Source: Bacillota bacterium (GTDB lineage: Bacteria > Bacillota > Dethiobacteria > DTU022). Taken from it: a stretch of 48,822 nucleotides of DNA. Below, piece by piece: positions 624 through 42,205 of this stretch (within the stretch, counting starts at the first letter, position 1; each line of letters begins with the position of its first letter). A program made the position numbers and the translations under genes. The notes under the pieces were generated by a model that saw only the letters and a program-made list of their open reading frames with translations, made no database searches and was not told where the DNA came from. The stretch covers positions 1 through 48,822 of the forward strand of contig JAHYJM010000009.1 in the NCBI GenBank assembly GCA_019428945.1, read 5' to 3'.

Positions 624-1187
624 ATGAAAAAAAATCTTTTGCACTTACTTGAAAACGACCCTGTTATACCTGCGGTCAAAGATGAAGCAGGTCTGCAGGC
701 AGTTTTAAACACAGATTGTGAAATAGTTTTTATACTTTACGGAGATGTTTTAAATATAGTAGACATAACTAATAAGATACAAGAAAGCGGTAAAATTGTT
801 TTCATCAACATTGACCTCCTCGATGGATTTGCCAATAAAGAAATTGTGCTTAAATACCTGCAAAAGAATACGAGAGCAGAGGGGATACTCAGTTCAAAAG
901 CTTCTATGATCAAAGCAGCCAGAGATCTTGGTTTCTACACAATTCACCGGCTCTTTATTATCGATTCCTTCTCTTTTAAGAGCATTGACCGGCAGATTGA
1001 GATATCAAAGCCGGATTACCTGGAAATTCTACCGGGATGGCCAAGGTTAATCACCTGGGTTATGGAAAAAACTGATATACCGATTATCTCCGGGGGCTTA
1101 ATCTGCTGCAAAGAAGATGTCGTCGCAGCGCTCAAGGCAGGCGCTACGGCAATCTGTTCCACAAACCCTGAGGTCTGGACTCTTTAG
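624..1187 (+). CDS. GlpP-family (YgcP-like) antiterminator regulator
   Basis: This 187-residue protein matches the glycerol-3-phosphate-responsive antiterminator family. Family-typical stretches include ARDLGFYTIHRLFIIDS in the middle and PIISGGLICCKEDVVAALKA followed by GATAICSTN near the C-terminus. B. subtilis GlpP binds nascent leader RNA and prevents termination when it senses glycerol-3-phosphate. The ATG at 624 has GGAGG 5 nt upstream. Downstream are a promoter and a terminator-containing leader (1209-1302) and then a ygc-type catabolic operon. E. coli YgcP is the homologue in the matching ygc cluster. I infer that this protein reads the 1247-1302 leader and its twin at 13971-14028. 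Its ligand need not be glycerol-3-phosphate here. Confidence 0.88.
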   Translation: MKKNLLHLLENDPVIPAVKDEAGLQAVLNTDCEIVFILYGDVLNIVDITNKIQESGKIVFINIDLLDGFANKEIVLKYLQKNTRAEGILSSKASMIKAARDLGFYTIHRLFIIDSFSFKSIDRQIEISKPDYLEILPGWPRLITWVMEKTDIPIISGGLICCKEDVVAALKAGATAICSTNPEVWTL

Positions 1188-1208: not shown

Positions 1209-1237
1209 TTGACAGCGATCAAGAATAACCATATACT
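1209..1237 (+). promoter_or_regulatory. Sigma-A-type promoter of the ygc-like operon
   Basis: TTGACA (1209-1214) and TATACT (1232-1237) are separated by exactly 17 bp, and transcription should start near 1244. The same -35, spacer length and -10 occur in the promoter at 14038-14066. Confidence 0.8.
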
Positions 1238-1246
1238 TAATATGAT

Positions 1247-1302
1247 AATTACTAGCGATGAGAGAAAAGTAATTTCCGGGAGGGAATAGCTTTTCTTTTT
1301 TT
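1247..1302 (+). promoter_or_regulatory. Antitermination leader: antiterminator and terminator hairpins
   Basis: The terminator pairs AGAAAAG (1263-1269) with CTTTTCT (1290-1296), plus an inner six-pair stem 1272-1277/1282-1287 closed by a GGGA loop, followed by a seven-T run at 1296-1302. AATTACT at 1247-1253 is the exact complement of AGTAATT at 1268-1274. That second arm lies inside the terminator's 5' side, so the two folds are mutually exclusive. This is the architecture of a protein-controlled antitermination leader, and a GlpP-family gene lies immediately upstream. The SDR gene starts 74 nt after the T run. Confidence 0.75.
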
Positions 1303-1375
1303 ATTGTTTTAAGTAATTCTGAATTAAGATACATTAGTACAGTATAAATATTTCTTCGACAAACGGAGGTTAATC

Positions 1376-2155
1376 ATGGGGATTAAAGATTTTGCCATTA
1401 ACTTTTTCTGCCTTGAGGGAAAAAACGCTATTGTTACGGGAGGTAATACAGGCCTGGGACGAACTTTTGCTCTTGCCCTCGCTGCTGCAGGCGCAAACTT
1501 ATTCATTCCGAGCATCAGGGAAGATGACGGTACAACCAGGACTCTGATAGAAAATGAAGGCGTTAAAATGGAATTTATGCATCAGGATATTACCGAGCCG
1601 GGAGCAGCCAGGCGAATAGTTGAAGGCTGTGTTGATACCTTTGGCTCTTTAGACATCCTGATTAATAGCGCCGGTATCAGTAAGAATGTTCGCGACGTCC
1701 TTGCATTCGGAAGAACAGAATGGGATGCGATGCTGAATGTAAATCTTACAGCACCTTTTGAATTAAGCTATGAAGCTGCAAAAGTAATGATTCCACAGTG
1801 CAGGGGCAAGATTATAAATATCTGTTCCATGTATTCATTTCTTGGAGGGCAATGGTCTCCTGCTTATGCTTCTACTAAACATGGTTTAGTCGGTTTTACC
1901 AAGGCTTATTGCGATGAACTGGCACAATACAATATTCAGGTTAACGGAATTGCTCCCGGATACTTTGCCACAGATCTTACTCTTGATACAAGAAATGATC
2001 CTGAAAGCAATAAAAGAGTTATAGACCATATCCCTGCAGGACGCTGGGGTGAACCTCTTGATCTGATGGGAGCCACTGTATTTCTTGCCAGCAAAGCCTC
2101 AGATTATGTCAATGGACAGATTCTTATAGTAGACGGAGGTTATCTTGTTCGATAA
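1376..2155 (+). CDS. SDR dehydrogenase, KduD/YgcW-like
   Basis: This 259-residue classical short-chain dehydrogenase should oxidise or reduce a hydroxyl on a sugar acid or polyol using NAD(P). Visible features are the TGGNTGLG dinucleotide-binding loop, NSAG, catalytic Ser151, and the YASTK active site with Tyr164 and Lys168. The C-terminal stretch IPAGRWGEPLDLMGATVFLA resembles 2-dehydro-3-deoxygluconate 5-dehydrogenase (KduD) and gluconate 5-dehydrogenase. The start has GGAGG at suitable spacing. It is the first gene after the antitermination leader and is followed by a sugar kinase, which suggests oxidation to a keto compound and then phosphorylation. The substrate cannot be read from sequence. 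Confidence 0.9.
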   Translation: MGIKDFAINFFCLEGKNAIVTGGNTGLGRTFALALAAAGANLFIPSIREDDGTTRTLIENEGVKMEFMHQDITEPGAARRIVEGCVDTFGSLDILINSAGISKNVRDVLAFGRTEWDAMLNVNLTAPFELSYEAAKVMIPQCRGKIINICSMYSFLGGQWSPAYASTKHGLVGFTKAYCDELAQYNIQVNGIAPGYFATDLTLDTRNDPESNKRVIDHIPAGRWGEPLDLMGATVFLASKASDYVNGQILIVDGGYLVR

Positions 2156-2186
2156 GCTCTGTTAGCAGGAAAGGAAGTGACAACAA

Positions 2187-3623
2187 ATTAAAAATAAAAA
2201 ATACCTGATCGGTGTCGATGGCGGAACTCAAAGCACCAAAGTTTTAATATTTGATCTCAGGGGAAACATAATCTGTGAGGGCAAAAAAGACTTACAGCCA
2301 ATGAGCCTGCCCGAACCCGGCGTCGTTGAACATCCTGATGACGATCTATGGGATTCCCTGATCATTGCAGCAAAAAAAGCTATGGATGCTTTCCCCGGTC
2401 AAAAAGACGAAATAATCGGCCTTGGACTGTGTACGATTCGCTGCTGCCGCGTATTACTTAAAGCTGATGGTACGCTTGCGTCTCCCGTAATCAGCTGGAT
2501 GGACGCCCGGCTGGCCAGGCCATATGAACATGATAATCCGGATGTCAGTTTTGTAACTACAACCACAGGATATATCACCCATCGCCTTACCGGTGAATTT
2601 AACGATACCGTTGCAAATTACGAAGGTCAATGGCCGATTGACAAGGATACATGGCAGTGGAGCGAGAACCCCGAGGTTTTCAGGCAGTTTAATATATCCC
2701 GGGATATGCTTTTTAACCTGCAGCTACCAGGTACTATAGCCGGATATATTACAAGAGAAGCAGCTGATGCCACCGGAATGCCCGAAGGGCTGCCAGTAGT
2801 TAATACTGCTAACGACAAATCTGTTGAAGCACTTGGCGCCGGACTTTTGCCTGGCCGCACAGCACTTGTCTCTCTTGGAACCTACATCGCTTCAATGGTC
2901 CACGGAAATAAAAATATTAAAGATGCAACCGATTTCTTCACAAACCTTGCCTCTGTTCCTTACCAATACCTGTATGAAAGCGGTGGTATCCGCAGAGGCA
3001 TGTGGACTGTCAGTTGGGTTAAAGAACTGCTTGGGGACGATGCTGCATTAAAAGCAAAAGCTCAAGGGATTTCCACAGAAACTTACCTGAACAATGAGGG
3101 AGAGAAAATTCCCGCTGGTTCTGATGGGCTGATGACAGTGCACGACTGGCTGGCCCGACCGGATATTGCTTACAGGAAAGGTATTTTAATCGGTTTCGAT
3201 GGTCGCCATGGCGGCGCTCATATCTACCGTTCAATCTTAGAAGGTATAGCGCTGACTATGAAAAACCATACTGATGCTATGTGCAGGGAGCTAAATCTCG
3301 ATCTCGATAATATAATTATTTCCGGAGGTGGCTCCAACAGTGATTTGTTTATGAAAATATTTGCTGATGTCTATAACCTTCCGGCGTGTCGGAACGCAGT
3401 CAATGGCGCTGCCGGCCTCGGTTCAGCTATTTGCGCCGCTCTTGCTACCGGTGTTTACCCCGACTACATCAGTGCTATAGAAAATATGGTCAGAATCAGG
3501 GACACTTTTAAACCGAACCACGACAATGCTGCTCTTTACCAGAGAATGAACGAAGAAGTATACAAAGATATTACAAAATATACCGACCAAATATTAAAGA
3601 AGTCATTCCCAATCTTCAAATAG
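2187..3623 (+). CDS. FGGY-family carbohydrate kinase (YgcE-like), likely ATT start
   Basis: The family's N-terminal phosphate loop (YLIGVDGGTQSTKVLIF) is encoded at about 2202-2252, upstream of the first in-frame ATG at 2301. The reading frame is closed by TGA at 2178-2180, and no ATG, GTG or TTG lies between. ATT at 2187 gives the expected MKNKKYLIGVDGG start. It sits 9 nt after AAGGAAGTGA, a near-complete anti-16S match. The resulting 478 residues fit the family (about 490). The kinase-domain Asp lies in ANDKSVEALG, and a C-terminal GGGSNSD loop is present. It phosphorylates a sugar or polyol, probably the product of the preceding dehydrogenase. A sequencing error at the start codon is the alternative. 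Confidence 0.82.
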   Translation: MKNKKYLIGVDGGTQSTKVLIFDLRGNIICEGKKDLQPMSLPEPGVVEHPDDDLWDSLIIAAKKAMDAFPGQKDEIIGLGLCTIRCCRVLLKADGTLASPVISWMDARLARPYEHDNPDVSFVTTTTGYITHRLTGEFNDTVANYEGQWPIDKDTWQWSENPEVFRQFNISRDMLFNLQLPGTIAGYITREAADATGMPEGLPVVNTANDKSVEALGAGLLPGRTALVSLGTYIASMVHGNKNIKDATDFFTNLASVPYQYLYESGGIRRGMWTVSWVKELLGDDAALKAKAQGISTETYLNNEGEKIPAGSDGLMTVHDWLARPDIAYRKGILIGFDGRHGGAHIYRSILEGIALTMKNHTDAMCRELNLDLDNIIISGGGSNSDLFMKIFADVYNLPACRNAVNGAAGLGSAICAALATGVYPDYISAIENMVRIRDTFKPNHDNAALYQRMNEEVYKDITKYTDQILKKSFPIFK

Positions 3624-3640
3624 AAAAAGGAGGGTTATAA

Positions 3641-5080
3641 ATGGCTCTGACAAGAGAAAATATTGTAGAGGGTTTAGAAGAAATAGTTGGACAAGAGCAG
3701 GTTATAACTGACGAGGCAGTTCTCAGGGAGAGCAGTGTTGATCGGTTCAGACGTTTTGAAGAACTGCATGGTGTATTTACACAACCAATTCCTGCCGCGG
3801 TTGTATATGTTCACACTACTGAAGAAACCGCAGCAGTGCTTAAATTTGCAAATGACAACATGATAAACATTGTCCCCCGCACTGGACATACCGCAACTGA
3901 AGGCGGGCTGGAAACCATAGCTGAAAACTCTGTTGTTGTCGATGGTTCTGCAATGAATAAAATAATAAAGATTGACACATATAACATGCAGGCTACCTGC
4001 CAGTGTGGAACTCCTCTGCAGGTCCTGGAAGATCAGCTCCGGGAAAAGGGCTTTACCACCGGCCATTCTCCCCAGTCAAAACCGCTCGCCCAGATGGGAG
4101 GTCTGGTGGCAACCCGCAGTATCGGACAATTCTCAACCCTTTATGGCGGAATTGAAGATATGGTAGTCGGACTCGAGGCAGTTTTCCCCAATGGCAAAAT
4201 CACCAAAATCAAAAATGTCCCCCGCAGGGCAGCCGGCCCTGATATAAGACACGTGGTAATCGGTAACGAGGGTGCGCTCTGCTTTATCACAGAAGTAACA
4301 GTTAAAATTTACAAGTATATGCCTGAAAACAATATCCTTTTAGGTTACACTCTCGATAACATGAAGACAGGTTTTGAAATTCTCAGAGAAGTTATGGTAA
4401 ATGGATACAAACCCTCGGTTGCCCGTCTCTACGACCCAGAAGATGGCGCCTATCATTTTTCACATTTCGCAGATGGAAAATGTGTAATCATATTTATGGC
4501 AGAAGGCCCTGAAAAAATTTCAGCTGCTACTGCAGAGGCAATTGAAGCTATTGTGGCAAAATATGACGAATGCCAAAAAGTTGACACCAGGTATATCCAA
4601 ACCTGGTTTGATCATCTCAACTGGGACGCTTCGAATGTTGCCGAGGAAAGAGCTGAGATAGTTGAAACGAAAAATATTGGCAACACCACCGAAATCTCAG
4701 CTAACTGGGACATAATAAACAGTATTTATGAAACCTGTGTAGAACGAATCCGCAACGAAATACCTGATATGACCCTGGTTGGCGGGCACTCTTCTCACAG
4801 TTACATAAACGGTACAAATTTGTATTTTGTCCATTACTATAATGTTGTTGATTGTAAACCTGAAGAGGAGATTACCAAGTATCATCGGCCGATTAAAAAA
4901 ATTATCGTTGAAGAAACAATTAAGGCCGGAGGTTCAATGTGCCACCACCATGGTGTAGGCAAACACAGAACAGACTGGATCAGAGATGAGTACGATACAT
5001 CATATTATATTCTTGAAACCCTGAAGAAATCATTTGATCCCAAAGGAATCATGAATAGGGGAACTATATTCCCTGCCTAA
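3641..5080 (+). CDS. FAD-linked oxidase, AGPS/YgcU-like
   Basis: This 479-residue protein has an N-terminal FAD_binding_4 domain (PRTGHTATEGG near residue 85) and a C-terminal FAD-oxidase domain. The latter carries the HHHGVGKHR signature at about 435-443 and the ending FDPKGIMNRGTIFPA, as in alkyl-DHAP synthase and glycolate/lactate dehydrogenases. GGAGGG lies 6 nt upstream of the ATG. EtfB and EtfA genes follow directly, so electrons from substrate oxidation probably pass to an electron-transfer flavoprotein. This parallels lactate dehydrogenase/ETF complexes of anaerobes and E. coli YgcU-QR. I infer a phosphorylated hydroxy compound as substrate. Confidence 0.88.
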   Translation: MALTRENIVEGLEEIVGQEQVITDEAVLRESSVDRFRRFEELHGVFTQPIPAAVVYVHTTEETAAVLKFANDNMINIVPRTGHTATEGGLETIAENSVVVDGSAMNKIIKIDTYNMQATCQCGTPLQVLEDQLREKGFTTGHSPQSKPLAQMGGLVATRSIGQFSTLYGGIEDMVVGLEAVFPNGKITKIKNVPRRAAGPDIRHVVIGNEGALCFITEVTVKIYKYMPENNILLGYTLDNMKTGFEILREVMVNGYKPSVARLYDPEDGAYHFSHFADGKCVIIFMAEGPEKISAATAEAIEAIVAKYDECQKVDTRYIQTWFDHLNWDASNVAEERAEIVETKNIGNTTEISANWDIINSIYETCVERIRNEIPDMTLVGGHSSHSYINGTNLYFVHYYNVVDCKPEEEITKYHRPIKKIIVEETIKAGGSMCHHHGVGKHRTDWIRDEYDTSYYILETLKKSFDPKGIMNRGTIFPA

Positions 5081-5095
5081 TAAGGTGATCGTTTT

Positions 5096-5923
5096 ATGTA
5101 TATATTAACCTGTTTTAAAGTTGTTCCTGATCTTGATAAACTCTCCGGCAGCAGCTGGACAATTGATGATCAATTAAACATTGAGACTGCTTTTGTCAGT
5201 AAAATGATCAATCCTTATGATGAAAGCGCTTTAGAGATCGCTTTACAACTATCTGACCAGATCACTACTTCAGGAACTACTGCTGAACTTAGCGCCATTA
5301 CAATTGGCAATTCACAGGCAGATCTCTATCTGAAATCCCTGAGAGCCCTGGGTTACAAAAAAGCATGCAGGATTAACTGCAGCATCGATCTGAGATTTAA
5401 CCCTGAATATATCGCCGCCCTGATTGGCGCTTATATAAAGCAAAACAATCCTTGTGATTTAATTTTAATGGGCCGTCAAAGCGGTGAAGGAGATAACGCA
5501 AAGACACCATTTATAACAGCCGAAATAATTGGTTGGCCCTGCATAGCAGATGTATTAAAGGTTGATTATATCAGCCCGAAATTAATCAGCGTTACAAATT
5601 TAACAGATAACGGCATCCTCAGGCAGACTGTGAAACTTCCCTGCCTTCTTGCCGTAGGTAATGCGCCGAACTCACACTTAAGGGTGCCAACTTTAAAAAC
5701 AATTAAAACTGTCGGGAATGAACCAGCCAGAGTTATTGAAGATAAAAACCTCATCAAATTTGTTAAACCGGGACAAAAAATAAACGGGGCGAAGCTGCTT
5801 GGGTTGGAATTAATCGATCACACCCGGCAGGGCATAATTATTGAGGGCAACTCGGCAGAAGAGAAGGCACTTTTACTATACAATAATTACCTCAAAGGGT
5901 GGCTTGCAGACAATGGACTTTAA
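5096..5923 (+). CDS. Electron transfer flavoprotein beta subunit
   Basis: This 275-residue ETF beta-type protein has the N-terminal nucleotide-binding fold beginning MYILTCFKVVPD. The family's loop appears as GRQSGEGDNAKTPFITAEII at about residues 126-145. AGGTGATC lies 5 nt before the ATG. It pairs with the overlapping alpha subunit and presumably accepts electrons from the flavin oxidase encoded 15 bp upstream. Whether it bifurcates electrons cannot be told from sequence alone. E. coli YgcR is the equivalent gene in the matching cluster. Confidence 0.9.
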   Translation: MYILTCFKVVPDLDKLSGSSWTIDDQLNIETAFVSKMINPYDESALEIALQLSDQITTSGTTAELSAITIGNSQADLYLKSLRALGYKKACRINCSIDLRFNPEYIAALIGAYIKQNNPCDLILMGRQSGEGDNAKTPFITAEIIGWPCIADVLKVDYISPKLISVTNLTDNGILRQTVKLPCLLAVGNAPNSHLRVPTLKTIKTVGNEPARVIEDKNLIKFVKPGQKINGAKLLGLELIDHTRQGIIIEGNSAEEKALLLYNNYLKGWLADNGL

Positions 5924-6929
5924 ATATATCTTAAATGCCTGCTCTGCAGATTATCCCGCCCGGTTATCTGAAGCCTGCGCATTTATAAATGCACATCTGA
6001 AGATTTTATCTGACATCGGGAAAGGGACTGCCGGAGAAGCAATTATTTTTTACTGCCACTCAGCAGATCGCGAACCTGACTTCACCGGGTTACCTTTACA
6101 GAGGATAAAGCTAGTTAAATTAAATAATTACCAGCCGGAATTAGCGCTGTCAGCGCTTTTTAGTATAGAAAAAGATAAACCGGCGGAACTCTATATTTTT
6201 TCAGGAAATCAAACCGGAACCGAATTAGCGGTAAGATTTTCCTGTCGTATCGGTGGAAGCTCTCTGGTTGATATTGATAAGTTCGAGCTGCATGATTCGC
6301 ATCTGGAGTGTTACAAAAGTGTTTACAGTGGATACTTGAAAGGCCGTTTAATACTTGACCAAAAGCCCTATTGCCTTACTCCGGCCAGGGGTATTTATAC
6401 TGCAGGAGATAAAAGTGATGATATTATATACAGAATAACAAAGCTTGATTTTGAGGATCTAACGAACATTAACTTCATAAAGAAAAGCGAATACATTTCG
6501 AAACAGGAAAATAATCAACTGGAACAGGCCGGTTTTATTGTAGCAGCAGGCAGAGGAGTAAAAGGAAGGGCAGAAATCGGCAGGTTAGAAAATATTGCCA
6601 CAGAACTGGGCGCTCAACTTGGTGTCAGCCGTCCGGTGGCTATGAATGCCTGGGCGCCTCTAGATCGACTGCTGGGCTCTTCCGGAACCATAAGCCGGCC
6701 GGAAATATGCCTGGCCCTGGCAGTTTCGGGCTCTGCAGCATTCTATGCCGGGATAGAAAAGAGCAAGTATATTATTGCTGTAAACACAGACGATCATGCA
6801 CCAATTATTAAAGCAGCTGATATAGTCATTATTGATGATTACAAAAAAATACTTGACGAACTGGTTCTAATAATTAAAAGAGACAAGGAGCTAAAAGGCA
6901 ATGCCGGAAAGGCATTGCCAGAGGTGTAA
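5913..6929 (+). CDS. Electron transfer flavoprotein alpha subunit
   Basis: This 338-residue protein has a weakly conserved N-terminal half and a clear C-terminal FAD domain. The domain shows AGRGVKGRAEIGRLENIA, SRPVAMNAWAP, ISGxx-type LAVSGSAAFYAGI and IIAVNTDDHAPI, all typical of ETF alpha. There is no N-terminal ferredoxin domain, unlike LctC of Acetobacterium. The ATG at 5913 overlaps the end of the beta gene by 11 nt, which implies translational coupling. It is the last gene of the operon. Its final codons contain a perfect 9-bp inverted repeat (6897-6919) that reads as a terminator for the opposite strand. Confidence 0.88.
   Translation: MDFKYILNACSADYPARLSEACAFINAHLKILSDIGKGTAGEAIIFYCHSADREPDFTGLPLQRIKLVKLNNYQPELALSALFSIEKDKPAELYIFSGNQTGTELAVRFSCRIGGSSLVDIDKFELHDSHLECYKSVYSGYLKGRLILDQKPYCLTPARGIYTAGDKSDDIIYRITKLDFEDLTNINFIKKSEYISKQENNQLEQAGFIVAAGRGVKGRAEIGRLENIATELGAQLGVSRPVAMNAWAPLDRLLGSSGTISRPEICLALAVSGSAAFYAGIEKSKYIIAVNTDDHAPIIKAADIVIIDDYKKILDELVLIIKRDKELKGNAGKALPEV
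6897..6919 (-). terminator. Hairpin terminator for the minus-strand operon, inside the etfA-like gene
   Basis: GGCAATGCC (6897-6905) and GGCATTGCC (6911-6919) form a perfect 9-bp stem with a 5-nt loop. Read on the minus strand the stem is followed by TTTT, as expected for intrinsic termination about 78 nt past the proline racemase stop. On the plus strand no T run follows, but the stem may also slow the etfA transcript. Confidence 0.55.
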
Positions 6930-6996
6930 CCAGGCGGGATTTATATTACACTGTCTCATTCTCAGACTGTTAGCTTTCAGATTCTCTGCTTTTATA

Positions 6997-7995
6997 TTAA
7001 CGAAGTGAAAACCCGTACTTGAGAGGGTCAGCGCTGTTTATTAAAAGCGTGCCCATGCCTGTTAAATAAGCTTTTCCTTTTACCCGGGGTAAAACTGCAG
7101 GCAAATCGGCTACCTTGGTTAAAGAATTAATGCGGCCTTCAAAGAGAGCCCCCGTTATACTTTCATGGTAAAAAGGTGTATCTTCTTTCAACTTTCCCTG
7201 TGCATGCAGCATTGCCATCCGTGCGCATGTTCCGGTACCACAGGGTGATCGATCAACCATTGCATGGCCGAGCACTACAAGACTTTTATTTGTGTCACCG
7301 GGGAATTCCGGTTCTTTGACGAACAATATGTCCTCAACACTGTTAATGTGTGGTTTTTCCGGGTGAGCTATCGAAATTTTACTGTTAATTTCTTCCCTGA
7401 TAGCCAAACCATAACGAATAAAATCGCTTAAATATTCTTTTGAATGTTTAAGATTAAGTTGATCCATACCTACTATCACAAAAAAATTGCCCCCAAAACC
7501 TATATCAACTTTTACTTTTACATCTACCAATCCTATTTCAAGGTTTTCTTTGTATAAAAAAGAAGGTACTCCCTGAAGGGTTGCATCTCCTGTTTTACCG
7601 TTTTCAACTTCAACCTTAACCGTAACCAGGCCGGCCCCTGTTTCCAAAACCACTTCAGTAACCGGTTCTTTTGCCGGTACTAACCCCAGTTCAATCGCGA
7701 TAGTAGCAATTGCCATTGAACCATGACCACACATATTATTATAAAATGCACTGTCAATAAATATCACTCCCAGATCTGCATCCGGATGGCATGGATCTAC
7801 TAAGACAGCGCCATACATGTCGTCGTGTCCGCGAGGTTCCAGAACAACCGCAGTGCGAATATGATCATAATTTTTCATCATGAATTCGCGTTTTTCCATT
7901 AAAGTGCTGCCTTTTAGCTGCGGACCTTTCAGGATAAGGCGCAGTGATTCCCCTCCGACATGTGCATCAACATATTTAATCATGTACTCACTCAC
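6997..7995 (-). CDS. Proline racemase / hydroxyproline 2-epimerase family enzyme
   Basis: This 332-residue member of the proline racemase family keeps both catalytic cysteines: Cys89 in MCGHG and Cys252 in DRSPCGTGTC. That argues for a racemase or epimerase and against the dehydratase branch, which replaces one cysteine. The start is GTG at 7995 with GGGGG 6 nt upstream; ATG at 7983 is an alternative. It is the last gene of the OpuC/PanB/MttB operon. The substrate is therefore more likely proline, hydroxyproline or a proline derivative released from a betaine or opine than free dietary proline. That link is inference from position only. Confidence 0.88.
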   Translation of the reverse strand: MSEYMIKYVDAHVGGESLRLILKGPQLKGSTLMEKREFMMKNYDHIRTAVVLEPRGHDDMYGAVLVDPCHPDADLGVIFIDSAFYNNMCGHGSMAIATIAIELGLVPAKEPVTEVVLETGAGLVTVKVEVENGKTGDATLQGVPSFLYKENLEIGLVDVKVKVDIGFGGNFFVIVGMDQLNLKHSKEYLSDFIRYGLAIREEINSKISIAHPEKPHINSVEDILFVKEPEFPGDTNKSLVVLGHAMVDRSPCGTGTCARMAMLHAQGKLKEDTPFYHESITGALFEGRINSLTKVADLPAVLPRVKGKAYLTGMGTLLINSADPLKYGFSLR

Positions 7996-8023
7996 AAGAA
8001 GCCCCCATTACCAGGTTCAAATT

Positions 8024-8674
8024 TTAATCACCCAGGCTAAAACGTTTCTGGATCCGGTTGTCGACAAAACCAACCAAACGCTCGAGGAAAACAGTTGTTA
8101 TAACAACCATCAGAATGCCAGCCAGAAGCATGCCCGTATTGTAAGTGCGGATACCCTGCATAATAATTCTACCCATCCCCCCGGCACCAATGAAAACAGC
8201 ATAAGTTGCTAAAGAAAAATTCATTACCAGGGCGGTGCGGATACCGGCAAATATAACCGGAAAGGCTAAAGGTATTTCCACCCTGAATAACAACTGCAAA
8301 TTGTTGGCGCCCATACCGCGGGCAGCTTCCTTCAGCATAGGATGAACCTGTATTATACCGACACAAGAATTCCTGATAACCGGCAGCAATCCATAAACAA
8401 CCAGGGCAATAAGCGCCGGTTTACTGCCGATACCCATGATCGGAATTAAAAAACCGAAAAGAGCGAGGATCGGTATTGTGTATAGAATAGAAACAGAGCC
8501 TAAAACAATGTCACGCAGCCTCTCAGTTCTTGAAATAGCAATACCCAGAGGGACGCCGATAATAATCGTAAAAAAAGTTGCCCACAGCACCAGATTAACA
8601 TGCTCTTTTAAAACTTCAAACATAAGATCCTGTCGGTTCAGAAAATAGTTCCAGGCACTGGTTAGAAGATCCAT
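8024..8674 (-). CDS. OpuC/ProW-type ABC transporter permease (second)
   Basis: This 216-residue inner-membrane permease has five to six membrane segments. Its cytoplasmic EAA-type loop reads LKEAARGMGANNLQLLFRVEIP, typical of betaine/carnitine/choline importers. The ATG at 8674 follows GGAGG by 7 nt and lies 4 nt after the ATPase stop. It should form a heteromeric channel with the permease at 10825-11472, as OpuCB and OpuCD do. Confidence 0.88.
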   Translation of the reverse strand: MDLLTSAWNYFLNRQDLMFEVLKEHVNLVLWATFFTIIIGVPLGIAISRTERLRDIVLGSVSILYTIPILALFGFLIPIMGIGSKPALIALVVYGLLPVIRNSCVGIIQVHPMLKEAARGMGANNLQLLFRVEIPLAFPVIFAGIRTALVMNFSLATYAVFIGAGGMGRIIMQGIRTYNTGMLLAGILMVVITTVFLERLVGFVDNRIQKRFSLGD

Positions 8675-8678
8675 TTTA

Positions 8679-9782
8679 CTACCTCCTATCCTCAGCCAGC
8701 AGATCGGCACAGGAACTGAAAAGCACTATCCCCTTAAAGCCTTCATCTTCGGAAATGACCGGCAACCAGGTCTTCCCTTTCCAGAGCATCTCCTCTACTG
8801 CCTGCTTGACACTTACCTCCGGTGAACAACCGGCAGGTAAAGGCTCTATCTGGCCTGCCGAAAATGTGCCGTCCTGGTTAAGGCTATCCAATGAAATATA
8901 ACCTAAACACTGCCCGTGATCGTTGGTCACAAATATATTTTCCCAACCTTTAAGTTTTTCATCTGAAAGATCAACTTTTCCCTTTTCCGAAACAATAGGA
9001 ATATCTTTTTCAATAGCTCTTAAAACAGGGATTGTATCAAGAACCTCAAAAAGGGCTCCCTGCCCGATAAAGTTCTTAACAAATTCATCCTCAGATCTGA
9101 CAATTTCCATCGGAGTCCCGAGGCAAACAAGTTTACCCTGGCGAAGAATTCCAATGCGGCTTCCTACCTTAAATGCTTCCTGCATGTCGTGAGTTACAAA
9201 AACGATAGTTTTTCGAATAGATTCCTGCAGCCTGAGCAGCTCATTCTGCAGCTGTTCCCGTGTTAACGGATCGACAGCACCAAAAGGTTCGTCCATTAGT
9301 AGAATATCTGGATTAGCTGCAAGTGCCCTGGCAACACCGACCCGCTGCTGCTGTCCACCACTTAATTCACGTGGATAACGTTTAAGGTAATTAGCCTGTA
9401 ATCCTACTGTTTCAACCAACTCGAGAGCTCTTTCATTTTGTTCTTTTTTTGATTTTTTTGTAAGCTTTAAAACAAAAGCAATATTTTCCTGAATTGTAAG
9501 ATGAGGTAAAAGCCCAATATACTGGATTACATAACCAATGGAGCGGCGAAGCTCGACAGCGTCGAGCTTCGTCACATCCACCCCGTTAACCAGTATATTT
9601 CCGGATGTATGAGGAATCAACTGATTGATCATTTTCAGAGTGGTAGTTTTGCCGCAGCCGGAAGGACCGATCAGGACAAAAATCTCACCCTTCTCAACCG
9701 AAAAGCTGACCTCATCTACTACTTTTTCCGTTCCGTAATATTTACTGACATTCTGCAGTTCTACACTGATTTCACGGGTCAT
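8679..9782 (-). CDS. OpuC/ProV-type ABC transporter ATP-binding subunit with CBS domains
   Basis: This 367-residue ATPase has Walker A GPSGCGKTTT, Q-loop YVIQYIGLLPH, signature LSGGQQQRVGVARAL, Walker B ILLMDEPFGA and switch His in VTHD. The last roughly 120 residues form a CBS pair, which in this family gates transport by sensing ionic strength or nucleotides. The ATG at 9782 has GAGGTG 9 nt upstream; a GTG four codons earlier is possible. It energises import of a quaternary amine together with the two permeases and the receptor. Confidence 0.92.
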   Translation of the reverse strand: MTREISVELQNVSKYYGTEKVVDEVSFSVEKGEIFVLIGPSGCGKTTTLKMINQLIPHTSGNILVNGVDVTKLDAVELRRSIGYVIQYIGLLPHLTIQENIAFVLKLTKKSKKEQNERALELVETVGLQANYLKRYPRELSGGQQQRVGVARALAANPDILLMDEPFGAVDPLTREQLQNELLRLQESIRKTIVFVTHDMQEAFKVGSRIGILRQGKLVCLGTPMEIVRSEDEFVKNFIGQGALFEVLDTIPVLRAIEKDIPIVSEKGKVDLSDEKLKGWENIFVTNDHGQCLGYISLDSLNQDGTFSAGQIEPLPAGCSPEVSVKQAVEEMLWKGKTWLPVISEDEGFKGIVLFSSCADLLAEDRR

Positions 9783-9804
9783 CCTCTTAAGCACCTCGCC
9801 TATT

Positions 9805-10776
9805 TTAGAGAAGTCCTACTGATTCCAGGTATTCGCGAGCTACATCTTCCGGATCTTGCGTTTCGACTTCAACAAGGTAATTTAAGCCGGTCATAGTCTC
9901 TTCATCGATACTGCCGAGCAGAGGTTTAAGCGCTTCATAGATGGAAGGATACTTTTCAAGAATCTCGCCGCGAACTACATAAATAGCGTCATAGGGCGGG
10001 AAAAAGCTCTTATCGTCTTCAAGCACGATAAAACCATACTCTTTCAAGCGTCCGTCTGTTGAGAATAGAGTGGTAACATCACCCTGACCCTGGGCCAATG
10101 CTTCATAGAAAAATGAGGTGTCTACGATAACCCTGTTGACACTGTCCATGTCAATACCGTAAGTTTCCGCCAGACCCAGATAGAGGTCAGGACGGGTGAA
10201 AGTGGTGTTGTCACCTATGAAAGTAAGATTGGGAATTTCGGCAAGCTCAGATAAAGTTGTAACTCCAAGCTCTTCCGCTCTTTCGGGATCCATTGCGATC
10301 GCGAAAGTATTTTGGAAGCCAACCGGTTCGAGCATAACAATCCCAAACTGCTCCAGGTAGGCATCGCGGGACTGTTCATAAATTTCCTGACGATCGGAAA
10401 TTACTTCTTCATTACCCAAAACTACCATCCAGGCTGTGCCGGTATACTCAGGATAGATATCAATCTGACCTTCAACCAAGGCCGGATGGAGCATTTCGGT
10501 CGGGCCCATGTTAATTTTGCTGGTGTCAACGGAGTGCACAGTATGTGCTTCGATGAGCAGGGCGGCCATATAACCAAGAGTCATGTTCTCAGACCAGCCT
10601 TTAGCGGCAAGAATTACCGTATAAGGTTCCTCTTCTACCGCGGCATCGTCACCGTTCGTTTCTTCATCTACCGGGTCATCAACAGGTGGCGTGGTTCCTC
10701 CACCACAGCCGGCTACCAAAAAAATAGCCATCATGAATACAACTAAAAGTAATGCTGCAAACTTTAATCTTTTCAT
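9805..10776 (-). CDS. Substrate-binding lipoprotein of OpuC/QAT-type transporter
   Basis: This 323-residue receptor has a signal peptide and an LVAGC lipobox, so it is anchored by a lipidated Cys. An acidic, proline-rich linker (DDPVDEETNGDD) follows, then an OpuAC-fold binding domain. Stretches such as WSENMTLGYMAALLIE, IYPEYTGTAW and FSTDGRLKEYGF are characteristic of glycine betaine/carnitine/choline receptors. GAGGAGG precedes the ATG. The ligand is likely a betaine-type compound because a methyltransferase of the MttB family is encoded in the same operon. Confidence 0.9.
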   Translation of the reverse strand: MKRLKFAALLLVVFMMAIFLVAGCGGGTTPPVDDPVDEETNGDDAAVEEEPYTVILAAKGWSENMTLGYMAALLIEAHTVHSVDTSKINMGPTEMLHPALVEGQIDIYPEYTGTAWMVVLGNEEVISDRQEIYEQSRDAYLEQFGIVMLEPVGFQNTFAIAMDPERAEELGVTTLSELAEIPNLTFIGDNTTFTRPDLYLGLAETYGIDMDSVNRVIVDTSFFYEALAQGQGDVTTLFSTDGRLKEYGFIVLEDDKSFFPPYDAIYVVRGEILEKYPSIYEALKPLLGSIDEETMTGLNYLVEVETQDPEDVAREYLESVGLL

Positions 10777-10824
10777 TACTAAATCCTCCTCTTTTTAAAA
10801 CTGGATTATGTTAAACCGGCAGCA

Positions 10825-11472
10825 TCAGGCGCTGCTGGTTACAACCTTAAGTTTCCGTTCCAATAAACCAAGCAGCTGGTCAAACGAAAGCGCCATTATT
10901 GAAACAGGAATGGTTCCGGCTAAAATCGTCCGATTATCCATCATTGATATGCCCTGAAAAATTAACTCGCCAAGCCCTCTCGCCCCGACCAGGGCACCCA
11001 TTACAGTGATGCCCACAGTAAGAACGGCAACTGTTCTTATCGCAGCCATAATTACCGGCAGAGCCAAAGGAAGCTCGACATTCATCAGCAGCTGGTAAGG
11101 TGTGGCTCCCATACCCTTGGCTGCTTCTTTTGCTGCCGGGTCTACCCCTAAAATACCCGTTACGGTATTACGAAGAACTGGTAACCAGGAATAAATAACC
11201 AGGGCAGTAATCGTAGGCAGCCAGCCAAGACCCAAAAAGGGCAGTAAAAAGCCGAGCAGCGCCAATGAGGGTATGGTATAAAGCATCCCGGCAAAATCGA
11301 TTACATATACTCCAACCTTTGGTTTTCTGGAAATTAGAATTCCCATCGGCACAGCCGTTAATGTGCCCAGGACTACTCCTGCCAGGGCCATCCAGGCATG
11401 CCTGACAGTGAGAACGGCAACCATCTCCCTTATATCCCAAAAATATTGAAAAAACCCGATAACACCTTCCAC
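10825..11472 (-). CDS. OpuC/ProW-type ABC transporter permease (first)
   Basis: This 215-residue permease is similar in design to the one at 8024-8674. Its coupling loop is AKEAAKGMGATPYQLLMNVELP, and several hydrophobic segments follow a short N-terminus. The start is taken as GTG at 11472; a GGGGGTG site lies somewhat far upstream (about 12 nt), so the exact start is less certain. The two permeases flank the receptor and ATPase genes, as in opuC operons. Confidence 0.87.
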   Translation of the reverse strand: MEGVIGFFQYFWDIREMVAVLTVRHAWMALAGVVLGTLTAVPMGILISRKPKVGVYVIDFAGMLYTIPSLALLGFLLPFLGLGWLPTITALVIYSWLPVLRNTVTGILGVDPAAKEAAKGMGATPYQLLMNVELPLALPVIMAAIRTVAVLTVGITVMGALVGARGLGELIFQGISMMDNRTILAGTIPVSIMALSFDQLLGLLERKLKVVTSSA

Positions 11473-11551
11473 TGCGCTAGATACACCCCCTTGCCTGCTT
11501 ATTTAATGGTGAAGTTTCCTGTCCAGTTTTACACCTCCCGCCGGCTAATTA

Positions 11552-12400
11552 CTACTTAAACTCATCAAAGAGCGCTTCAAATTTTTCTTTCGGCTCAGTT
11601 ATGTGATAAACATGTTCGTCTGTAGGGAAAGCGCCACTCTTGACATCTTTAATGTATGTTTTAAAAGCATCAACTGTCACGGCTGCCAAATCGGCATACT
11701 GCCTGACAAATTTCGGTGTAAATATCTTAAATTGGCCAAGCATATCACCACAAATCAGCAGCTGCCCATCACAGGGTCCCGCCCCGATGGAGTAAACAGG
11801 AATATTTAGCTTCTCAGTAATAAACGCAGTAACTTCGGGGGGGACTGCTTCAATCAACAATGAAAATGCACCGGCTTCCTGTACAGCCAGTGCATCTTTT
11901 ATTACTTCACGGGCATTTTTAACATCGCGACCCTGTGCTTTGAAACCTCCTAACTGACCTGAGCTTTGAGGGGTCAAACCGATATGTCCCATAACCAGGA
12001 TGCCGGCATCAGTAATCGCCCTGATGCGGCTGGCAACCCTTTGGCCACCTTCAAGCTTGATACAGTCCACACCAGCTTCTTTAATGAACCGAACAGCATT
12101 ATTGACAGCATCACTGTCAGTAGTCTGATAAGAGCCAAATGGCATATCTCCGATCACCCAGGTGTTGGGAGCTCCCCGGCGAACCGACTGACAGTGAGCC
12201 AGACAATCTTCCATCGTCACCGGAATAGTACTGTCATAGCCCATCACAAGCATTCCGAGCGAATCACCGACAAGAAGCATGTCCATTCCTGCCTGCTCAC
12301 CAAAGAGCGCAGTAGGGTAATCATATGCGGTAATCCAGGCTGTTTGTTCGCCTTTTTCTTTCATTTGCATGAAATCGATAACCGTTTTCTTCTTTTTCAT
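11552..12400 (-). CDS. PanB-like ketopantoate hydroxymethyltransferase
   Basis: This 282-residue protein has the full PanB fold signature: Mg-binding LVGDSLGM and IGDMPFGSY, IKLEGG, GHIGLTPQ, and the catalytic Glu in LLIEAVPPEV. PanB transfers a hydroxymethyl group from methylene-tetrahydrofolate to 3-methyl-2-oxobutanoate. The usual GAGxxCDGQ loop is one residue shorter here (GAGPCDGQ). No panC, panD or panE gene is nearby. It sits 24 nt after an MttB-family methyltransferase and before an ABC importer. It may therefore be a paralogue acting on a 2-oxo acid in a catabolic route, or a displaced biosynthetic gene; I cannot decide from sequence. Confidence 0.85.
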   Translation of the reverse strand: MKKKKTVIDFMQMKEKGEQTAWITAYDYPTALFGEQAGMDMLLVGDSLGMLVMGYDSTIPVTMEDCLAHCQSVRRGAPNTWVIGDMPFGSYQTTDSDAVNNAVRFIKEAGVDCIKLEGGQRVASRIRAITDAGILVMGHIGLTPQSSGQLGGFKAQGRDVKNAREVIKDALAVQEAGAFSLLIEAVPPEVTAFITEKLNIPVYSIGAGPCDGQLLICGDMLGQFKIFTPKFVRQYADLAAVTVDAFKTYIKDVKSGAFPTDEHVYHITEPKEKFEALFDEFK

Positions 12401-12424
12401 GATCCACCCTCATTTCTACTTAAT

Positions 12425-13897
12425 TTAGGCAACCCTACCGCCTTCAGCCATATCTATAATTTTCTGAAATTCACTTACGATACTATGATCAAGTGATTCT
12501 GGCTGATGTTCTGCCAAAAGCTGCCTCGTTTTTTCTGTCAGCCGCTGATCATAGGTCAGCCTGCCTCCAGCCTCCCAGGCAGGATACTGCTCACGGTTCA
12601 TCAACCGGGGCAACCAGAAAGCGGTTTTAAAATTTCTATAAGTATGATCTTCCTGCAAAAAGTGTCCACCGGGTCCTACCGCATCGATCACATCGACTGC
12701 CAGAGTTTCATCATCAACCCTGATTCCGGCAATCATTTTACGAACATAGCTGATAATTTCATCACCCATAACTAATCCCTGTAATGAAGCTGACATGCCC
12801 GATTCTAAAAATCCTACATCGTGAACCAGGTTTGCCCCGCTTAAAGCTGCAGTGTAAATTGAAAGGGAATATTCAATTGCTGTCTGCATATCAAGCGCTT
12901 TGGAATCACTGGCTCCGGCAGTGCTGAACATAGGTAAACCGAGATATTGAACCAGCTCTGAATAACCGGCATGCATCAGGCAAAAATCAGGCGATGATGC
13001 ATAACAGTGTATCATTGTCCGCATATCCATATTTGTAGTTACGCCGCCGGCTATAAACGGTGCGCCCGGATTTTTAAGCTGATGAATTACCAAACCGGCC
13101 AGGCAATCAGATGCAGCCATAACAATTACACCGGCCAGGGAAGAGGGTGCCGTAGCATTTCCCTGAACACCGGGGGTATAGATAACCGGAAGTTCTTTTT
13201 CTGCCATAAATAACAGTTTATCCAGCGATTCTTTCGGGTGTTTTAAGGGCGTAGCCGGTTCAGTGTATAGGACAAAAAACGGGTTATCTCTTAATAAGGC
13301 TGCGCCTCCGGCTGCCGCTTCACAGAGGGCAACTATTGATGCATTGTTATTAAGATTAAAAGCCCAGGAAACAATAGGCTTAGATGTATTCTCAAGCATT
13401 GCCTGCACTTCATGTACATCGGCTAAAACAGGTGTAACATCTGAAATACATGCAAGCGACATACAAAAATCAAGGCTTGGCAGAGCATCAACCAACCTGG
13501 CCACATTACGGACATCCTGTTTAGTTACTTTGCGTCTTTCTCCGCTATCAAGATCTATAAAGTTCGGGTTGGTGGGTCCAGGGCCAAAGTAAGTATTACG
13601 CCCCTCTAAAAATAGTCTTCTTTTTCCGTTCCGATCTGCCAGGGCAAGACGTGAGGGAGCACTCTCAATCGCTTTTTCTACCAGGCGTGACGGTATCCAA
13701 ACTCTTTCTCCGTCTATCCGGCAACCTGCATTGCGAAGTAATTCCAATGCTTCTTCATTATATATTCTCGCACCGGTTCTCTCGAGCACTTCCAGTATCG
13801 CCCTGAAAACTCTTGCACACTGGTCTTGTGAGAAGACAGAAAAACGAACCGACCCGTTATCAAACTGATTGCTGCTACTGCATTTTTCCCAATACAA
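12425..13897 (-). CDS. MttB-family corrinoid methyltransferase without pyrrolysine
   Basis: This 490-residue protein belongs to the trimethylamine methyltransferase family, with FGPGPTNPNFIDLDSGERR, the glycine-rich FIAGGVTTNMDM stretch and ISYVRKMIAGIRVDDETLA. It is open throughout with no in-frame TAG. It thus belongs to the non-pyrrolysine branch, whose known members demethylate glycine betaine, proline betaine or carnitine onto a corrinoid protein. TTG at 13897 is chosen because AAGGAG lies about 8 nt upstream; an upstream TTG at 13948 has no ribosome site. No cognate corrinoid protein or reactivase is encoded here. It is first behind the promoter at 14038-14066. The substrate is inferred, probably a quaternary amine brought in by the adjacent transporter. 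Confidence 0.88.
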   Translation of the reverse strand: MYWEKCSSSNQFDNGSVRFSVFSQDQCARVFRAILEVLERTGARIYNEEALELLRNAGCRIDGERVWIPSRLVEKAIESAPSRLALADRNGKRRLFLEGRNTYFGPGPTNPNFIDLDSGERRKVTKQDVRNVARLVDALPSLDFCMSLACISDVTPVLADVHEVQAMLENTSKPIVSWAFNLNNNASIVALCEAAAGGAALLRDNPFFVLYTEPATPLKHPKESLDKLLFMAEKELPVIYTPGVQGNATAPSSLAGVIVMAASDCLAGLVIHQLKNPGAPFIAGGVTTNMDMRTMIHCYASSPDFCLMHAGYSELVQYLGLPMFSTAGASDSKALDMQTAIEYSLSIYTAALSGANLVHDVGFLESGMSASLQGLVMGDEIISYVRKMIAGIRVDDETLAVDVIDAVGPGGHFLQEDHTYRNFKTAFWLPRLMNREQYPAWEAGGRLTYDQRLTEKTRQLLAEHQPESLDHSIVSEFQKIIDMAEGGRVA

Positions 13898-13970
13898 CTG
13901 ACTCTCTCCTTCAGCTGCCAGGTTATTGACAAAATTATTTTGCGTCAAGAAACAGTTGTTTTATAAATAT

Positions 13971-14028
13971 AAAAAAGAGAAAAGCATACTTCCACCCGGA
14001 AATTACTTTTCTCTTCTCACTAGTAATT
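13971..14028 (-). promoter_or_regulatory. Antitermination leader of the methyltransferase operon (twin of 1247-1302)
   Basis: Read on the minus strand, AAGAGAAAAG (14015-14006) pairs perfectly with CTTTTCTCTT (13984-13975), with a TTCC/GGAA inner stem and a six-T run at 13976-13971. AATTACT (14028-14022) can instead pair with AGTAATT (14007-14001), disrupting the terminator. Over 34 nt (14028-13995) it matches the 1247-1280 leader at 31 positions, including every base of the competing stems there. The methyltransferase start is about 75 nt beyond the T run. Confidence 0.75.
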
Positions 14029-14037
14029 GTTACCTCC

Positions 14038-14066
14038 AGTATAATGTGTATCATCCCAACTGTCAA
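14038..14066 (-). promoter_or_regulatory. Sigma-A-type promoter of the MttB/PanB/OpuC operon
   Basis: On the minus strand TTGACA (14066-14061) is followed after exactly 17 bp by TATACT (14043-14038). Both hexamers, the spacer length and the 9-nt distance to the leader's AATTACT are the same as in the promoter at 1209-1237. The promoter lies just past the stop of the opine dehydrogenase-like gene. Confidence 0.8.
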
Positions 14067-40831: not shown

Positions 40832-42205
40832 TCAGTTTACTTTTTCCATAAACCTGCGAACCGAGTTAAGTTCAAGATTAAGAAGCTTACCAATATTCAT
40901 CTTAGCCTGGATCCCTCTCGCTTTGCCATGGTGAGATACAACACGGCCGATATTTAAATCATCCCTGACTTCGTTCATGATTACTTCATCGGCTAAATCC
41001 CTTGTTGATACCTTAAGCTTACCTGCAACATATTTTTTTGCTTCCCCTACTCGCATTCCGGTCATTTGCATGCGCGCTACCAGATCTCCGGCGGTGCGCA
41101 AACCACCCATGCCCGATGCCAGTGTGTGTGTAGCAATCATTCCGCAAAAATCGCCTGTGCCTACCTATAATCCATCAGCTTTACCCACCTCAGCCATGGC
41201 CACTGATACCCTGCTGACCACATCAACAGGAAGAACTTCAACCGTAGTCACTCCGCCGACACCTAACCCGACATTGGGATGGACAGGAATATTGGCCGCT
41301 TCCACACAGGCTCTGCAGTAGGTCACGGCTCGGGCAAGGTTAAAAGCAAATGATTTTTTGCTGTTGTTGTTTATAACCGGTCCAAAAATGGTTACCCCTG
41401 CTTTCTCAGCCAGTTTTACCTGCTCATGGGGGTAAAGTCCGGCCAGCCGCACTCCATCATATGTTAGCCTGCCGTGCATTCCCAGTACAAATTCCCCAGC
41501 CATGCCCATCTCTATACAAATGTCCGGATATTTTTCTTTAAGTATTTCAGCTGCTTTAAGAGCAGCATAGAAGTCTGCATCACCAGCCGCTCCGGTAGTA
41601 TCGAAATCAATACCCTCCGCCCCGCCTTCATACATTTCACTCGCTACATAAACGAGGTCTTTGATACAATATTCAGCTGCTTCCTCCTGGGCGTCTCTCG
41701 ACTCGCCGATCTTACCCTGTGGCAGCAATTCCGCCCAATTATGTACCGGTCCGTCAGGGCGGCTGTAACGGCCAAGATCGGGCATGGCGCCGTAAAAAAG
41801 AGGTATCGTAAGCAAATGTGATGCCTGCTCCACCCAGGATCGCTCTTCAGTTGCTACAGTTTTAACCGCCTTATAACTGTAATCTATAAAACCTGATTCA
41901 GCCGTATCCATCCCACAAACCCTTTCATAAGTCTGAAGCATTTGCAGGCGGTTAACCGAAAACCCCCGGGGAACCGAACCGATTGAAGGAGAATCACCGG
42001 TCATAATGATCTCATTGCCCTTTTCTACTCCTACCATTTTACCCGGCCTTGTGCAAATCTCATACAACCTGTCAAGATCTTCTGATCTCAGCGGAGCTAT
42101 TTTCCCTCTGTCAGAGGCATCTTCCATGCCGGCCTGTAAATCTTCTTTAATTTTTGATCCATCAACTTCTATCAACTCTCCATCGCCAAACCTTGTTAAT
42201 ACCAT
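40832..42205 (-). CDS. mtbB: Dimethylamine corrinoid methyltransferase MtbB with in-frame UAG (pyrrolysine)
   Basis: Two open segments (42205-41168 and 41164-40832) in the same frame are separated by one TAG at 41167-41165. Together they give a 457-residue MtbB-family protein. The sequence reads [14 protein letters not shown], then the amber codon, then [20 protein letters not shown] and [11 protein letters not shown], as in archaeal MtbB. There, pyrrolysine occupies the equivalent site (residue 356 in Methanosarcina; 347 here). MtbB transfers a methyl group from dimethylamine to a corrinoid protein. ATG at 42205 has AGGTGA 6 nt upstream. No corrinoid protein, reactivase or pyl genes are in the window. 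Termination at the UAG would leave a truncated 346-residue product. Confidence 0.9.

Follow-up and report, generated by a model that had tools for sequence, protein, structure and literature searches.

Paired leaders as probable conditional terminators of a YgcP-type antiterminator in a Dethiobacteria genome, with counterparts in Escherichia coli K-12

INTRODUCTION

In Bacillus subtilis, GlpP bound to glycerol-3-phosphate binds an antiterminator and disrupts a terminator, and three similar promoters are involved (PMC9604022; PMC7430163). In the present study we analyzed a DNA stretch of 48,822 nucleotides (contig JAHYJM010000009.1 of assembly GCA_019428945.1; called the window below) from a Bacillota bacterium of the Dethiobacteria, in which a gene for a protein of the GlpP family (PF04309) lies just upstream of the first of two closely similar leaders, each standing before an operon on a different strand. 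An earlier note on the window had interpreted the two elements as antitermination leaders that join the operons in one regulon.

Like the B. subtilis GlpP system (glpD, glpFK, glpTQ), the locus combines a PF04309 protein, a predicted conditional terminator near the promoter, and several operons per protein, and the loops of the window leaders are of the AGAGANNNAGAGA type found in leaders beside Bacillota GlpP genes. Unlike the B. subtilis system, it has a protein of another clade, another stem, no glycerol genes, and a regulon composed of genes for a short-chain dehydrogenase/reductase (SDR), an FGGY kinase, a flavin adenine dinucleotide (FAD)-linked enzyme, and electron-transfer flavoprotein (ETF) subunits together with a transporter. 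The BglG, LicT, and SacY systems with their ribonucleic antiterminator (RAT) elements share the principle of a protein-stabilized antiterminator hairpin overlapping a terminator, but the window protein is unrelated to these regulators (PF04309 alone matches, and the CAT RNA-binding and PRD domains of the BglG/LicT type are absent from it), and the RNA element is a different one.

RESULTS

Two leaders with the same promoter and mutually exclusive folds

The regulator gene and the elements of the two leaders are the following.

624-1187, plus strand: gene for a GlpP/YgcP-family antiterminator (PF04309, 187 amino acids, ATG at 624 after GGAGG)
1209-1237, plus strand: promoter of operon 1 (TTGACA-17-TATACT; 11 of 12 consensus bases)
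1247-1274, plus strand: predicted antiterminator hairpin, copy 1 (AATTACT / loop AGCGATGAGAGAAA / AGTAATT; compensatory stem changes in homologues)
1260-1302, plus strand: intrinsic terminator, copy 1 (minimum free energy, -17.9 kcal/mol; 5′ arm includes AGTAATT)
14038-14066, minus strand: promoter of operon 2 (TTGACA-17-TATACT; 11 of 12 consensus bases)
14001-14028, minus strand: predicted antiterminator hairpin, copy 2 (AATTACT / loop AGTGAGAAGAGAAA / AGTAATT)
13971-14018, minus strand: intrinsic terminator, copy 2 (minimum free energy, -23.0 kcal/mol)

The whole leaders span 1209-1302 (copy 1, plus strand) and 14066-13971 (copy 2, minus strand). Copy 1 consists of TTGACA (1209-1214), a 17-nt spacer, TATACT (1232-1237), a 9-nt gap, and AATTACT from 1247 on; in copy 2, TTGACA (14066-14061), 17 nt, TATACT (14043-14038), and a 9-nt gap are followed by AATTACT from 14028 on. 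Past the gap both leaders read AATTACTAG.GA..AGAGAAAAGTAATTTCCGGG and are identical at 31 of 34 positions. Reading of the coordinates on both strands and measurement of the match thus confirmed the common promoter and the leader similarity described in the earlier note, whereas the gap that it had called identical agrees in length but not in sequence (3 of 9 positions). This gap and the 17-nt spacer (6 of 17 positions) match at chance level, and the same holds true for the 100-nt flanks outside the hexamers and the leader (26 of 99 positions upstream, 31 of 100 downstream), which argues against the similarity being the residue of a recent duplication of a longer segment. When the 31-nt leader core was searched with up to three mismatches in the 2.36-Mb genome assembly, exactly two sites were found, and the reversed control pattern gave none in the same genome.

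Folded alone, the full leaders adopt the terminator structure with -17.9 kcal/mol (z, -4.0) and -23.0 kcal/mol (z, -5.7), and none of 200 shuffles was as good. The competing hairpins, formed by AATTACT, a 14-nt loop, and AGTAATT, are worth -1.6 and -1.8 kcal/mol alone. As AGTAATT sits within the 5′ arm of the terminator, the two folds exclude each other, and at the structure level both target leaders contain a promoter-proximal terminator overlapping a competing hairpin. A strong terminator facing a weak hairpin should lead to termination by default, with read-through requiring help, and the weakness of the hairpin is expected if a protein is needed to stabilize it. From the 9-nt spacing after the -10 hexamer, we infer that the 5′ arm of the hairpin coincides with the predicted RNA start or lies only a few bases from it. 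A simple terminator scan reported no terminator at either leader because of a bulge in the stems, whereas folding finds both. With the Rfam 15 covariance models, no family reached its gathering score at either leader, the sole match in the window being the PYLIS_2 element mentioned below.

Affiliation of the regulator

The protein encoded at 624-1187 reached 196 bits with PF04309 (cut-off, 27 bits) over its full length (profile positions 1-173 of 173) and is the only PF04309 protein of the genome above the cut-off. Sequence comparison matched it to the solved GlpP proteins 3kts and 1vkf, and its identity to YgcP of E. coli is 51.6%. We labeled as YgcP-type 15 of 51 PF04309 proteins, namely those from ygc-like loci and a spirochaete protein whose gene is cut by the end of its contig, and the tree of all 51 placed these 15 in a single group (one change on the tree; 78/84 support; recovered in 80% of bootstrap trees). 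This group stands apart from the PF04309 proteins encoded beside glpK, glpD, or glpFK, suggesting with moderate support that the window regulator belongs with E. coli YgcP and not with canonical GlpP. The GlpP-family antiterminator that the earlier note had placed just upstream of copy 1 is therefore real as a PF04309 gene, but it represents the YgcP branch rather than the glycerol branch of the family. In Klebsiella pneumoniae CP125156.1 (L108:6007-9902), genes for an FGGY kinase, a 2-hydroxyacid dehydrogenase, and an SDR accompany that of a distant PF04309 protein with 26% identity to YgcP; judged by these genes, the locus is a further putative non-glycerol setting for PF04309 regulators.

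Distribution of the leader in relatives and in the phylum

PF04309 proteins above the cut-off occur in 12 of 60 relatives, and the leader was found in 8 of these 12 genomes compared to none of the 48 without such a protein (Fisher test, 2e-7). Six of the eight were recognized by a strict pattern and two (G011 and G022), missed by the pattern owing to a 2-nt insertion in the loop, by reading the intergenic stretch. All eight family genomes in which the antiterminator gene adjoins an SDR gene have the leader. Their 13 copies always include one before the SDR gene and, in five genomes, one before a second operon; in these five both copies were retained though the surrounding non-coding sequence diverges. 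The four PF04309 genomes lacking the leader comprise two (G010 and G014) with the gene beside glycerol genes, different leaders of their own, and a protein of another clade, one (G040) with a distant PF04309 protein, and one (G013) with the gene cut by a contig end. Weak model matches in two genomes without PF04309 above the cut-off (G019 and G026) were short hairpins and were rejected as chance.

An evenly drawn phylum sample comprised 399 genomes. A homologue at an E value of ≤1e-20 occurred in 134 of them, but one with at least 62% identity in only three, and the covariance model detected the leader in exactly these three. In JA4.bin15 (L070), whose antiterminator is 63% identical, the leader precedes an SDR-FAD-FGGY-antiterminator operon. 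The co-occurrence with the glpP-like gene that the earlier note had suggested examining was thus found (8 of 12 versus 0 of 48): the leader is not a sequence of many unrelated genes, with two sites per genome and a presence in just those 3 of 399 phylum genomes that have a YgcP-type gene, nor is it missing where relatives have retained this gene beside the SDR gene (8 of 8).

In the nearest relative (G001; L034:9781-16616), the second leader precedes a peptide-type ATP-binding cassette (ABC) transporter and not an MttB/PanB/OpuC operon; an octopine-dehydrogenase-like gene upstream is split into several frames there. Behind or near the leaders transporters recur in most lineages (OpuC, peptide-type ABC, or major facilitator superfamily [MFS]), which fits a joint control of uptake and of an oxidation/kinase pathway.

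Distant copies and covariation of the stem

E. coli K-12 contains two opposed copies in the divergent ygcW-yqcE region, near ygcP, each followed by a terminator.

L072:16260-16580 (NC_000913.3, about 2900259-2900579), divergent: twin leaders of E. coli between ygcW and yqcE

The copy before yqcE-ygcE reads AATTACT AGAGACCTGAGAAA AGTAAT(C), and the copy before ygcW-ygcU-ygcS-ygcR-ygcQ reads AGTTACC AGAGATAATGAGAAA GGTAACT. A comparison over 5,426 E. coli genomes detected this region in 5,038 of them; beyond it, leaders were looked for by BLAST with one leader only. The twin arrangement seen in the window is therefore real but not a local peculiarity. Besides the divergent twin leaders, the E. 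coli ygc cluster (ygcP, ygcQRSUW, yqcE-ygcE) shares with the window homologous genes for the SDR, the FAD enzyme, the kinase, and the antiterminator. It differs by MFS transporters in place of OpuC, by the lack of MttB and PanB, and by a predicted CRP site at ygcW/yqcE, which was among the top CRP predictions of PhyloScan (PMC1794230). The twin leaders adjoin a palindrome, TGTGATTACGATCACA, compatible with a CRP site.

On a megaplasmid of Streptomyces clavuligerus, AGTTACT AGAGACCAGAGAAC AGTAACT stands downstream of the antiterminator gene and ahead of SDR-FAD-FGGY genes. The megaplasmid cluster of Enterococcus gilvus and Enterococcus raffinosus resembles the window in uniting the antiterminator, SDR, OpuC-type transporter, FAD enzyme, and ETF. 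In these species a copy GTGTTACT..AGTAACGC stands before an MFS gene divergent from the antiterminator gene, and the SDR gene follows the latter in one run with the OpuC-type transporter. Unlike the window, the cluster has the stem variant GTGTTACT/AGTAACGC and a weak second leader, and a kinase was not seen in the stretch read.

Among 13 hairpins including those of E. coli, Streptomyces, and Enterococcus, three of the seven pairs have changed on both sides, with 98.9% of the cells pairing. The covariation score was reached by none of 500 shuffles, and slid partners paired in 1.5 to 58% of the cells. These compensatory changes in the aligned sequences are the main evidence suggesting that the weak hairpin is real; together with the folding of both leaders they bear out the AATTACT/AGTAATT pairing and the exclusive folds proposed before.

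In canonical GlpP leaders of the phylum sample, the same kind of loop is held by unrelated stems (TTGGTTC AGAGACGAAGAGA GGACCAA and TATGGC GGAGAAATGGAGA GCCATG), and a Cytobacillus leader before glpFK also has it (GTGA..AGAGATTAAGAGA..TCAC).

L087:1900, L088:2091, L089:2085, L041:9026, and L109:6600: canonical GlpP-locus leaders with a AGAGANNNAGAGA-type loop and unrelated stems

A blind descriptor composed of the loop type, a stem of at least 6 bp, and a terminator gave 62 matches in 1.42 M strand-bases, many of them from duplicate loci and every one at a GlpP/YgcP regulon locus, and one match in 4.25 M shuffled bases. Because the loci had been picked for GlpP/YgcP genes, this result reflects specificity and not genome-wide frequency.

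Gene content of the two operons

1376-2155, plus strand: SDR oxidoreductase, YgcW-like, operon 1 (PF13561/PF00106; 67% identity to YgcW)
2187-3623, plus strand: FGGY-family kinase, YgcE-like, operon 1 (FGGY_N/C; 56% identity to YgcE)
3641-5080, plus strand: FAD-linked dehydrogenase, YgcU-like, operon 1 (FAD_binding_4, FAD-oxidase_C; 66.5% identity to YgcU)
5096-5923, plus strand: ETF beta-like, YgcR-like, operon 1 (Pfam ETF; tblastn match to ygcR)
5913-6929, plus strand: ETF alpha-like, YgcQ-like, operon 1 (Pfam ETF_alpha; tblastn match to ygcQ)
12425-13897, minus strand: MttB-superfamily methyltransferase, operon 2 (PF06253, 332 bits; no in-frame TAG; probable TTG start at 13897)
11552-12400, minus strand: PanB, ketopantoate hydroxymethyltransferase family, operon 2
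8024-11472, minus strand: OpuC/Osm-type osmoprotectant ABC transporter, operon 2 (open reading frames for permease, binding protein, ATPase, permease)
6997-7995, minus strand: proline racemase/hydroxyproline epimerase family, last gene of operon 2 (PF05544, 354 bits)

In both window operons glpF, glpK, glpD, and glpTQ are not among the targets, their place being taken by the SDR/FGGY/FAD/ETF and MttB/PanB/OpuC genes. The FGGY kinase reached 98 bits with the GlpK model, whose cut-off is 498. Its homologous start (window 2181-2301) offers no ATG, GTG, or TTG but an in-frame ATT in the window genome (G000) and in G001, and ATG, GTG, or TTG in relatives, so that the window kinase probably starts at ATT. 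The ETF genes (5096-6929) are about 44 to 53% identical to the ETF genes at the same place in relatives, compared to about 69 to 92% for the adjoining SDR, kinase, and FAD enzymes.

The binding protein of the operon 2 transporter is OsmF-like, with a score below the cut-off of the OsmF-like model. The PanB gene is the only one of the genome, and PanC was not found in the assembly, an absence that is uncertain at 98% completeness. A single PanB without PanC suggests that this PanB probably does not serve pantothenate synthesis, and it may act in catabolism. The genome contains 24 MttB-superfamily matches in 2.36 Mb, several with one in-frame TAG (pyrrolysine type), and the organism is apparently a methylated-amine specialist. 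The pyrrolysine insertion element PYLIS_2 (Rfam RF02509, 61 bits; 41068-41167, minus strand) probably lies inside a dimethylamine methyltransferase gene.

DISCUSSION

We propose that both leaders are conditional terminators under the control of the YgcP-type antiterminator encoded at 624-1187 (probability, about 0.87). From the computed evidence, namely the leaders, their exclusive folds, the co-occurrence, the compensatory changes, and the E. coli arrangement, we infer the binding of the protein, the direction of control, and the effector. The view of the earlier note that these are antitermination leaders is supported by copy number, by the relatives and the phylum sample, and by the covarying pairing.

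Each transcript would start at or near the AATTACT arm. Without inducer the strong terminator would form and RNA polymerase would halt about 55 nt into the transcript. The effector-bound protein would recognize the conserved purine-rich loop (AG.GA..NAGAGA) and stabilize the AATTACT-loop-AGTAATT hairpin, which would occupy part of the 5′ arm of the terminator and allow both operons to be read through together. Operon 1 would then provide an oxidation pathway of SDR, FGGY kinase, FAD-dehydrogenase, and ETF, and operon 2 an uptake system together with demethylating and C1-transferring enzymes. GlpP responds to the compound made by an FGGY kinase, GlpK; in analogy, the likeliest effector would be the phosphorylated compound that the FGGY kinase of operon 1 produces.

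Several observations weigh against this proposal. Our literature search found no binding, transcription, or expression data for YgcP-type proteins. Across the copies folded, the antiterminator hairpin is worth just -1.4 to -6.1 kcal/mol alone, and its stem is invariant within the window's own family, so that the support for pairing comes from a few distant sequences. The stem of the Enterococcus leader preceding the SDR-OpuC operon is weak, with just 4 to 5 bp, and the relative G027 has an MttB operon that lacks the leader and directly follows an octopine-dehydrogenase-like gene. The two-operon regulon envisaged at the outset thus stands as regards the two sites per genome, but the second operon is less tied to the leader (G027, G001).

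An ordinary GlpP sensing plain glycerol-3-phosphate, with the locus as a displaced glycerol regulon, would agree with the common Pfam family, with the sequence match to solved GlpP proteins, and with the loop type shared by canonical GlpP leaders. We consider it unlikely, as glpF, glpK, and glpD are lacking at the window loci, the kinase is not GlpK and scores far below the cut-off of that model, and the genomes with true glp neighbors (G010 and G014) have other leaders and regulators of another clade. Since the direction of control is not readable from sequence, the protein might also bind the leaders but repress, by stabilizing the terminator or blocking translation; this is very improbable, as the terminator is stable alone, the conserved loop is that of the competing hairpin, and the characterized GlpP activates (PMC9604022). 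A riboswitch or attenuator responding to a small molecule without the aid of a protein would likewise explain a compact leader with exclusive folds and strong base conservation within the family. We give it slightly less credence still, because a leader of about 55 nt whose hairpin is worth -1.6 kcal/mol offers no fold for a ligand pocket, no Rfam family matches, and the leader tracks the antiterminator gene across phyla. A recent duplication or mobile repeat without regulatory meaning, suggested by 31 of 34 identical nucleotides within one genome, is scarcely credible and an origin from repeat elements was rejected, given flanks at chance level, only two sites per genome, two copies kept in five genomes despite diverging non-coding surroundings, and the occurrence in E. 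coli and S. clavuligerus.

A much wider reading of the conditional terminators, which we regard as a long shot, would combine a YgcP-type regulon in at least three phyla, including E. coli K-12, that senses a phosphorylated intermediate with the catabolism of a glycerol-linked quaternary amine in the window lineage, e.g., glyceryl-trimethylhomoserine, the head group of betaine lipids. OpuC would import the amine and MttB would strip its methyl groups. The lone PanB would run in reverse on 4-hydroxy-2-oxobutanoate, presumably a substrate of this enzyme (a search for support found nothing), and deliver C1 units to tetrahydrofolate. The SDR, FAD, ETF, and FGGY proteins would act on the glycerol moiety, and the antiterminator would sense the phosphate of this moiety. 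The choice of glyceryl-trimethylhomoserine is speculation built on gene content, and a bacterial pathway for trimethylhomoserine catabolism was not found in the literature search.

The literature searched on YgcP, the ygc cluster, and PF04309, which did not extend to subscription papers such as the original B. subtilis leader papers, contained no description of a YgcP target. The proposed mode of action is that of GlpP, whereas the clade, the leader, the regulon, and the E. coli counterpart appear to be undescribed in this literature.

For YgcP, an uncharacterized regulator of E. coli K-12, our analysis provides a predicted RNA target and a predicted mechanism. The E. coli ygc operons are predicted to be terminated in their leaders until the inducing metabolite is present, and the inducer could therefore be screened for with simple reporters. 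The transporter behind the second leader varies by lineage (OpuC, peptide-type ABC, or MFS) and is a clue to the substrate of the pathway. For the GlpP family as a whole, the results suggest a recognition rule in which the purine-rich loop stays constant and the stem, which also forms part of the terminator arm, can be exchanged.

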